In this document: piece after piece, positions 1,185-33,386 of the stretch
Numbering within the stretch: the first letter of the stretch is position 1
Layout of the letters: the number at the start of each line of letters is the position of its first letter
NCBI GenBank assembly: GCA_946405135.1
Contig: CAMJGD010000005.1
Span: 99,726-163,725, forward strand
Source of the DNA: an uncultured Clostridiaceae bacterium
GTDB taxonomy: Bacteria; Bacillota; Clostridia; Clostridiales; Clostridiaceae
Reading direction: 5' to 3'
Length of the DNA stretch: 64,000 nt
Made by a program: the position numbers and the translations under genes
Notes under the pieces: model-generated
Databases searched by the model: none
Seen by the model: only the letters and a program-made list of their open reading frames with translations
What the model was told of the DNA's origin: nothing

Positions 1185-2081
1185 ATGAATATAACTTTAA
1201 ATGGTATAGAATTTAAAAACCCAGTAATAGCTGCCTCAGGGACCTTTGGATTTGGCACAGAATACAATGACTACTACGATGTAGGTATACTTGGAGGAAT
1301 ATGCACTAAAGGTCTTACTTTAAAAGAGAGAGCAGGTAATGAGGGGATAAGAATTTATGAGACTCCTTCAGGAATTTTAAATAGCGTAGGATTGCAGAAT
1401 CCTGGAATAGACAAATTTATAAAATATGAGCTTCCTAGGATGAAAAAGTTTAATACAAATATAATAGCTAATGTAGGGGGAGCTGACATAGAAGAATATG
1501 AGGAAAGTATTACCAAACTAAATGATACAGAAGTAGATATTATTGAACTCAATATATCTTGTCCAAATGTAAAATCTGGAGGAATGGCTTTTGGAATAAA
1601 GTCAGATGTTGCTTATGAAGTGGTAACAAAAGCAAAAAAGTTAAGTAAAAAGCCTTTAATGGTTAAACTGTCACCTAATGCAGAAAATATTGTAGACATG
1701 GCATATAGATGCTGCGAGGCAGGAGCGGACAGTCTATCTCTTATAAATACTATAAAAGCTATGGCTATAGATATAAAAAGTAAAAGACCTGTATTTAACA
1801 ATGTGTTTGCTGGACTTTCAGGTGCGGCTATTAAACCTGTTGCTCTTAGGATGGTTTATGAAGTATCAAAAACAGTTAAGGTTCCAGTTGTAGGAATTGG
1901 CGGCATAACTACTGCAGAAGATGCTATTGAGTTTATTATGGCAGGAGCTTCGGCTATTCAAATAGGTACAGTAAACTTTGCAAATATAAAATCAGGTATA
2001 GAAATAGTAGAAGGATTAGAAAATTACATGAAAAAACAGGGCATAAAGAGTATTGACGAAATAAAAGGTGCAGCTTGGTAA
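1185..2081 (+). CDS. pyrD: Dihydroorotate dehydrogenase B, catalytic subunit
   Basis: PyrD is the FMN-containing TIM barrel that oxidises dihydroorotate to orotate. I chose the ATG at 1185 because GGAAGGGG lies 7-14 bases before it; the frame is open back to an ATG at 1161, but that start has no ribosome site and would add eight unlike residues. The resulting 298 residues are usual for the family. Visible landmarks are ASGTFGFG at the N-terminus, [11 protein letters not shown] with the catalytic-loop Cys typical of class 1B, the VKLSPN strand, and the FMN phosphate loops GIGGI and [10 protein letters not shown] 75-base gap separates it from pyrK. Confidence 0.95.
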
Positions 2082-31960: not shown

Positions 31961-31975
31961 TTATTAGTTATTTAG

Positions 31976-32013
31976 GTTATCTTAATGGATATAACATTAA
32001 GATAACTTTTTTT
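31976..32013 (+). terminator. Terminator of the desulfidase gene
   Basis: GTTATCTTAATG / CATTAAGATAAC is a perfect 12-bp stem with a 7-base loop, followed by seven T. Confidence 0.93.
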
Positions 32014-32156
32014 AAAAACTAGACTTCATATATATTAAACAGGAATTTAATACTATGATTTGCATATTTTAAAATAAAATTTTAAAATTTCAAAAATTTA
32101 AACTTATTATATTTATATTATTATAAAAATGAGTTAAAATTGAATTATAAAAAATA

Positions 32157-32200
32157 AAAGGAGGTTTTGTCGAAAAATATTATTCGACAAAAGTAATATG
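32157..32200 (+). promoter_or_regulatory. Hairpin lying between Shine-Dalgarno and start codon of degV
   Basis: AAAGGAGG at 32157-32164 is directly followed by TTTTGTCGAA (32165-32174), an 8-base loop, and TTCGACAAAA (32183-32192). GTAAT and the ATG at 32198 come next. The 10-bp stem is perfect. Read linearly, the ribosome site is 33 bases from the ATG, too far. With the stem folded, only GTAAT separates them, the usual 5 bases. No other start codon lies at a normal distance. Confidence 0.75.
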
Positions 32201-33082
32201 AGAGATTTTATAATAATGACCGATTCCTGTTCAGATTTACCTATAGAATATATAAAAGATAAAAACATCCCTTACGTTAGTCTGACTTGTTCATATGATG
32301 GCAATGAATATATAGATGATTTTGGGCAGACTTTGCCCTATACAAAATTTTTTGAAGATATAAGAAAAGGAGCTATACCTAAAACTTCTCAACCGAGCTC
32401 CCAAGCTATCTATGATAAATTTTTAGAATTTGTAAGCAAAGGCATGGATATATTATATATATGTGTGTCTTCTGGTTTAAGTGGAACTTTTAATGGAATA
32501 AATATAGCTAAAACAATGATATTGGAAGATTACCCTGAAGCAGATATAAGTATAGTAGATACTTTAACTGCATCCTTAGGAGAAGGTCTCCTCCTAATAA
32601 AAGCAGTGGAAATGAAAGAATCAGGAGCATCAAAAGAACGCATAATTCAGTATCTTGAAAATCAAAAAATGTTTTTAAATACCTATATATTAGTAGATGA
32701 TTTAAGCTATTTAAAAAGAGGAGGAAGAATTTCTACAGCAGCTGCAGCGATTGGAAAAGTGCTTCATGTAAAACCTATATTAACTTTAAACCAAGAAGGC
32801 AGGGTAATACCTATATTGAAAGTAAAAGGCAGAAAAAATTCTATTAAGAAACTTGGAGAAATTGTAAAAGAAAGAATAGAGAATCCTAAAGAACAGCTGG
32901 TTACTATATGTCATGCAGATTGTTATGAGGAAGCGTTAAATCTTAAGAATTATATAATAGAAGAAATAGGTGTAAAAGATGTGCTTATTAATTATATAGG
33001 AAACACTGTAGGGGCTTATAGCGGAAATGATGCATTAGCAGTATTTTTTATAGGAAAAGAAAGACAGCATCATATTATATAG
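32198..33082 (+). CDS. DegV family fatty-acid-binding protein
   Basis: DegV proteins bind a fatty acid and, in the FakAB system, present it for phosphorylation before phospholipid synthesis. This 294-residue protein has the N-terminal MTDSCSDLP, the GAIPKTSQPSS ligand loop near residue 62, the SSGLSGTFNG loop near 90, and YLKRGGRIS near 168. The start is set by the hairpin-bridged ribosome site described separately. No fakA is adjacent. The argS leader promoter begins four bases after the stop. Confidence 0.93.
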   Translation: MRDFIIMTDSCSDLPIEYIKDKNIPYVSLTCSYDGNEYIDDFGQTLPYTKFFEDIRKGAIPKTSQPSSQAIYDKFLEFVSKGMDILYICVSSGLSGTFNGINIAKTMILEDYPEADISIVDTLTASLGEGLLLIKAVEMKESGASKERIIQYLENQKMFLNTYILVDDLSYLKRGGRISTAAAAIGKVLHVKPILTLNQEGRVIPILKVKGRKNSIKKLGEIVKERIENPKEQLVTICHADCYEEALNLKNYIIEEIGVKDVLINYIGNTVGAYSGNDALAVFFIGKERQHHII

Positions 33083-33115: not shown

Positions 33116-33139
33116 AAAATGTAAATTAATATGTAAATT

Positions 33140-33386
33140 CGAAGAAGAGGAGAGTACTTTTATAGACTTCTTACAGCGAGTAGGGACAGAGTGTAAGCCC
33201 TATAAGAATATATATAAGGAAGAGAGCCTTGGAGAAGTTGCCTGAACATTTAAAGTTTATGTTAAAATTTTTTATAAGTAGGGTAATCCGCTGATAAGCG
33301 TTAAATTTTTGAGTGGATCTTTAGATCAACTGGAGTGGTACCGCGGATATTCCGTCTCTTATTTTATTTAAGAGGCGGTTTTTTTA
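33140..33386 (+). promoter_or_regulatory. T-box leader of argS with terminator
   Basis: The T-box core TGGAGTGGTACCGCGG lies at 33331-33346. Stem I landmarks (AGCGAG, CCTTGGAG, CTGAAC) and AGTAGGGTAATCCG precede it. The terminator CCGTCTCTTA / TAAGAGGCGG with seven T is at 33352-33385. The downstream gene implies an arginine specifier, but I could not place an Arg codon in the expected loop. Confidence 0.92.

Follow-up and report, generated by a model that had tools for sequence, protein, structure and literature searches.

The core of the Spo0A box has been given as TGTCGAA, in which single changes cut the binding of Clostridioides difficile Spo0A about 10-fold (PMC3485338), and as TGNCGAA (PMC4690370). 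A roadblock by boxes located downstream of the promoter has been proposed for abrB and for the Pv promoter of spo0A in B. subtilis (PMC12090719). On the side of translation, the closest described systems are genes 38 and 25 of phage T4, where a hairpin between the Shine-Dalgarno sequence (SD) and the AUG shortens the spacing from 22 to 5 nt and from 27 to 11 nt, respectively; these split sites were proven by mutation, and the stem of gene 25 is conserved in close T-even phages (PMC3014915). The DegV family includes fatty-acid-binding FakB proteins, and one paper lists degV among the widespread genes of spore formers.

Here we analysed a stretch of 64,000 nt (the window) from the genome of an uncultured Clostridiaceae bacterium, in which a palindrome separates the SD of a degV gene from its start codon. 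Like the operators of B. subtilis abrB and spo0A Pv, this locus has the exact TGTCGAA core and a pair of boxes downstream of a presumed promoter, and its arms share the T-rich left flank of the boxes found before spo0A in the family. Unlike those operators, it has two perfect boxes in convergent orientation, separated by 8 bases and located within the ribosome binding site, it occurs in one of 206 family genomes, and its binding by Spo0A is predicted. Like T4 genes 38 and 25, degV has a hairpin between SD and AUG, which would change the spacing from 33 to 5 nt; unlike in T4, the folded spacer is predicted, the stem is not conserved, and it doubles as a DNA site. In the open-access literature, we found no precedent for convergent boxes with 8 bases between the arms, and no title or abstract on an inverted arrangement of Spo0A boxes, on DegV together with Spo0A in a clostridium or, among the matches listed, on an SD-hairpin-start layout in Firmicutes or Clostridium. 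On balance, we favour the reading that the palindrome is a Spo0A operator of two convergent boxes in the degV leader, whose RNA copy is likely a hairpin that brings AGGAGG from 33 to 5 nt from the ATG.

Proposed split ribosome binding site of degV

The degV gene (32198..33082, plus strand) encodes a DegV family protein of 294 aa (PF02645, E 6e-77). Its start, MRDF, aligns with the starts of the relatives, and we regard it as sound because the relatives' proteins also begin with MRDF, MKDF or a similar sequence and, of 41 distinct degV leaders, 39 place an SD-like core no more than 24 nt from this codon; only the leaders of the window and of one relative (G087) lack such a core. The nearest good SD of degV is 33 nt from this conserved start, with the palindrome exactly between the two. 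Specifically, the region reads AAAAGGAGG, then TTTTGTCGAA-AAATATTA-TTCGACAAAA, GTAAT and the ATG at 32198. The SD, AGGAGG (32159..32164, plus strand), is followed by the perfect 10-bp palindrome TTTTGTCGAA-N8-TTCGACAAAA (32165-32192), which consists of a left arm (32165..32174), the loop AAATATTA (32175..32182) and a right arm (32183..32192), and GTAAT (32193..32197, plus strand) forms the 5-nt gap between hairpin and ATG. The initial annotation had described a perfect hairpin with an 8-base loop at this place, and its sequence, coordinates and spacings are confirmed, including the SD-ATG distance of 33 nt in the linear and 5 nt in the folded leader.

The isolated 28-nt hairpin has a folding energy of -9.5 kcal/mol, which none of 200 shuffles equalled, while the fold of the 111-nt context does not stand out, with a z-score of -1.65 and an equally good fold in 17 of 200 shuffles. 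Both the SD and the AUG lie outside the stem, and the SD bases are predicted to be 0.39-0.85 unpaired in the 111-nt context. For comparison within the own genome, we used 464 kb consisting of the window and 20 stretches of 20 kb. On its two strands this sequence holds 517 GGAGG words, and only the one at degV leads into a hairpin with 7 bp or more and then a start codon; for six control words, 3401 occurrences in the same 464 kb yielded two such hairpin-start cases, with stems of 7 and 9 bp.

The gene preceding degV ends in a terminator-like hairpin (31974..32008, plus strand; terminator scan), and degV therefore probably has a promoter of its own. A predicted sigma-H-like promoter, AGGAATT-N14-GCAT (32041..32065, plus strand), has a -10 one base off GAAT and would have transcription begin roughly 90 nt before the palindrome; the underlying pattern AGGAATW-N14-GMAT has seven matches on both strands of the 464 kb and was not found in the other 40 degV leaders. 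Just 3' of degV, a T-box leader (RF00230, 117.9 bits; 33133-33362, plus strand) precedes argS, and it is the only Rfam match above the cut-off around the palindrome. We also considered the palindrome as a terminator; the plus strand has no T-run after the stem, and a minus-strand terminator-like match with the tail CCTCCTTTTA was judged spurious.

Spo0A-box core in both arms

Both arms of the palindrome carry the exact published Spo0A-box core TGTCGAA. The left arm TTTTGTCGAA reads as a rightward box (core at 32168-32174, plus strand), and the right arm TTCGACAAAA gives the same TTTTGTCGAA on the minus strand; the two arms also provide the 5' and 3' strands of the hairpin. In the 3.69-Mb genome, TTTTGTCGAA occurs four times: in both degV arms, in the gap upstream of spo0A, and at one further site, which lies 96 nt before an ORF with no Pfam assignment. 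The ten-letter arm thus equals the box before the genome's own spo0A in all ten letters. Part of this rarity is due to CpG depletion, since CpG has an observed/expected ratio of 0.29 in the window and the reversed-letter control of TTTTGTCGAA, which contains no CpG, is common (54 occurrences in the own genome). The shorter TTGTCGAA is present 11 times, four of them within coding sequence.

The genome encodes a Spo0A of 270 aa (L049), and the gene before it is one that we take to encode SpoIVB. The DNA-binding domain of this Spo0A aligns without gaps with the solved Spo0A structures 1fc3 and 1lq1, which confirms the identity of the protein. We compared 30 spo0A upstream regions, which are the best 30 loci of a longer match list and include the own genome: TGTCGAA lies at -52 to -72 in 27 of them, and all ten letters are present in 19. 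One of the three regions that lack a perfect box is that of the nearest genus (G032, L159). Box and sigma-H-like -10 share letters in these promoters (16/30 by the strict pattern), which means that Spo0A is not the only reason why these letters are conserved. A matrix was built from the spo0A boxes of 26 relatives, with the own genome left out, and used to scan 467 kb to which the spo0A locus had been added on purpose. The own spo0A box had the highest score (21.5 bits) and was followed by the degV right arm (18.6 bits for the 16-letter minus-strand site at 32179-32194), with 13.6 bits for the site after that; the degV left arm came only 14th (11.3 bits). A DNA operator inside the transcript had been offered as an alternative in the initial annotation, and the published core, the own spo0A box and the matrix, which identify the arms as Spo0A boxes, make it the best supported of the readings given there. 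On these grounds, Spo0A is predicted to bind the degV palindrome.

Several observations count against a Spo0A operator, namely the rank of the left arm, the TTGTCGAA words in coding sequence, the lack of a perfect box before spo0A in the nearest genus, the overlap with the sigma-H-like -10 and the distribution of the pair. The convergent pair TTTGTCGAA-N{0,28}-TTCGACAAA was found in 1 of 206 family genomes, the own genome only, which leaves no second case by which to judge selection; its reversed-letter control, again without CpG, has matches in many of the 206. With the 8-base spacer and up to two mismatches, 19 of the 206 genomes match, the other 18 all with two mismatches, and none of these 18 sites is at degV, as judged by coordinates where the degV ortholog is known. 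Single boxes were counted in the degV leaders of 40 relatives. In favour of the operator, three of them have TGNCGAA at a distance of up to 150 nt from degV, against a mean of 0.51 in shuffles, of which 1 in 300 reached this count; two of the three belong to one genus and thus leave two independent cases at most. The strict TTGTCGAA is present in only one, with a mean of 0.06 in shuffles and 5% of them reaching one. These counts and the other comparisons of degV leaders exclude six second-group DegV proteins (L122, L123, L124, L125, L126 and L129), the distant L011, L026 with a start one codon off, identical leaders, L120 and L121 as duplicates of L032 and L021, and G044, whose match starts where its contig begins or ends; they include L127 and L128, which have 47% identity. 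The looser TTTGWCRAA (7/40) was set aside, as it had been chosen after looking and overlaps the -35-like TTGACA. In the third leader with TGNCGAA, that of G038 (L037), we observed a strong Spo0A-like box, ATATTTGTCGAAATTA (14.4 bits), about 80 nt before degV and inside the near-palindrome ATATTTGTC-GAAATTA-GACAAATAT; judging from these letters, degV of G038 may be another gene under Spo0A.

Possible folded spacers in degV leaders and a repeated element

When the last 45 nt of the 41 degV leaders were folded, the most stable folds were those of G087 (-13.8) and the window (-11.1), followed by -5.3 and a median of -1.9. These are the two leaders without a near SD, and the comparison was made after looking and with n = 2 such leaders. 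The gap between hairpin and ATG is 5 nt in both, and the hairpin sequences are unrelated. An inserted palindrome alone would both displace the SD and fold, and the leader comparison thus fits a folded spacer and is no proof of it. As in the T4-type split sites, the far SD would reach a normal distance when the leader is folded, with the stem predicted to be paired at 0.96 at 37 °C. Unlike there, neither conservation nor compensation of the stem was found in the family genomes searched, none of which is of the same genus. The conservation that the initial annotation had suggested looking for in degV upstream regions is therefore not seen: these genomes gave no second degV with the palindrome, and a conserved RNA stem with compensatory changes was rejected, since there is no covariation to read. 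The claim that translation depends on the hairpin remains plausible and gains mild support from the lack of an SD-like core within 24 nt and from the G087 parallel, while the stem itself is not conserved.

The G087 hairpin belongs to a repeated element. The pattern AGTGANTATTTAGTG-N{10,40}-CACTAA has 20 matches (L186-L205) in 13 of the 206 family genomes and in five genera, with nine of the 13 genomes in one genus; its reversed control has no match among the genomes listed. Pattern matches lie, for example, at 1499-1553 (minus strand) in L198, 1495-1547 (plus) in L189 and 1499-1554 (minus) in L195. At all 20 sites an SD-like AAGGAAG, AAGGGAG or AAGGGAAG overlaps the 5' edge and an ATG follows 6-10 nt past CACTAA, as established for 18 sites by script with an ORF check and for L190 and L197 by eye. 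The genes behind the element are unrelated, including thymidylate synthase and creatininase (Pfam), DegV and others; the others are ones that we take to be topoisomerase III-like, RtcB-like, metallo-beta-lactamase-like and a PAS-domain regulator, as four N-termini have no Pfam match. Of the 20 sites, 11 were compared with Rfam, and none of these matched at the element. Covariation lends weak support (1 of 8 pairs with a two-sided change, 19 of the 20 sites aligned), because the outer stem hardly differs between sites, in contrast to the inner part. The element may be a mobile or regulatory split-ribosome-site element. In G087, a TwoAYGGAY RNA (RF01731, 69.7 bits; L184, 1696-1850, minus strand) was also observed upstream of the topoisomerase III-like gene that carries the element.

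The degV palindrome resembles this element in its SD-hairpin-ATG layout, and the element stands once before a degV ortholog, that of G087; unlike it, the palindrome is unrelated in sequence, and the exact AGTGANTATTTAGTG pattern is absent from the own genome (0 matches). The palindrome was also rejected as a diverged copy: a covariance model of the element, which rests mainly on the invariant outer stem, gave eight weak matches up to E = 1 in 464 kb of the own genome, none at the palindrome, and of the best three one is an ordinary SD-ATG and the other two lack the outer stem.

These leaders bear on a reading in which the palindrome acts at the RNA level only, as a translational split ribosome site whose hairpin joins SD and AUG and whose likeness to Spo0A boxes is coincidental. 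The exact fit of the hairpin between SD and start, the identity of the two leaders lacking a near SD with the two strongest hairpins, and the repeated element of the G087 hairpin, with an SD-like stretch before it and an ATG after it at every site, speak for it. It would be surprising, on the other hand, if a stem of arbitrary sequence matched the box upstream of spo0A; moreover, the DNA symmetry extends through the loop, and the G087 hairpin differs in sequence. We consider this reading unlikely.

Candidate mechanism and remaining alternatives

In the favoured reading of a convergent Spo0A operator, phosphorylated Spo0A (Spo0A~P) would bind the pair in the degV leader and block or slow RNA polymerase, so that degV would go down at the onset of sporulation. 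The block would probably be a roadblock, because the pair lies downstream of any promoter able to make an mRNA that bears the SD. In the mRNA, the hairpin would form at once and provide a fixed folded spacer, comparable to those of T4 genes 38 and 25, so that the operator would bring no cost to translation. The hairpin itself is not proposed as a switch; it is expected to be folded during growth and to serve as a spacer, not a thermosensor, because pairing of the stem core is predicted at 0.99 at 37 °C, 0.97 at 45 °C and 0.92 at 60 °C (end pair, 0.84 at 37 °C and 0.47 at 60 °C). The full proposal gives one 28-bp palindrome two readings: in the DNA, its convergent Spo0A boxes would form an operator that shuts off degV transcription at sporulation, and in the mRNA the segment would fold upon itself and leave the split ribosome site functional. 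This proposal is tentative, and we give it somewhat less than an even chance. If true, a transcription-factor operator would sit inside a ribosome binding site and be tolerated since, being palindromic, it folds out of the mRNA; such self-hiding operators would be free to occupy the most sensitive spot of a gene, and degV, from a family with fatty-acid-binding proteins, would be tied to the sporulation switch. With the repeated element of the relatives, folded spacers would become a testable recurring feature of bacterial genes, beyond phage T4.

Dimeric repressors favour long near-perfect palindromes, and the degV site is one: 26 of its 28 bases are symmetric as DNA, among them bases of the inner loop that stand too near to each other to pair in RNA, and this symmetry also speaks for the Spo0A operator. 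The site could thus be the operator of another DNA-binding regulator, for example of the TetR or MarR type, that resembles Spo0A boxes by accident. The palindrome is single in the own genome with up to three mismatches allowed, for which reason a repeat or mobile element was also rejected, and this spacer has no second strong copy in the 206 genomes, so neither a regulon nor a neighbouring autoregulated site is seen. Since the arms already fit a known box, we regard another regulator as improbable. We also attach a low probability to chance or a recent neutral insertion, with the palindrome functionless as DNA and as RNA: it is present in one genome only, AT-rich leaders form hairpins easily and hairpin-like control cases exist (the two in 3401), but box identity, position and folded spacing coincide here.

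By eye, both leaders without a near SD also contain a short frame that closes at the degV start codon or directly beside it. In the window, nine codons run from TTG at 32167 to TAA at 32196 (plus strand), with the stop 1 nt before the ATG, and in G087 (L181) a GTG frame of 14 codons ends in a TGA that overlaps the ATG. Translational coupling, with a restart on degV, could use such frames. The window TTG is only 2 nt from AGGAGG, which is too close for ordinary initiation, and AT-rich sequence yields such stops easily; coupling is therefore a slim prospect. Finally, the RNA thermosensor or ligand- or protein-gated ON switch proposed in the initial annotation would draw on a translation that appears to need the fold, but is very improbable, as the stem core is predicted to stay paired up to 60 °C, SD and AUG are not hidden in the structure, the stem is not conserved, and no evidence of ligand gating was found, with no Rfam match at the degV hairpin up to E = 1.

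Around the palindrome we further counted nine promoter-like matches versus 3.9 in shuffles. One of them, TCGACA-18-TATAAT (32144-32173, minus strand; 11/12 matches), has its -35 inside the left arm, and an antisense transcript under Spo0A control from this site is conceivable.
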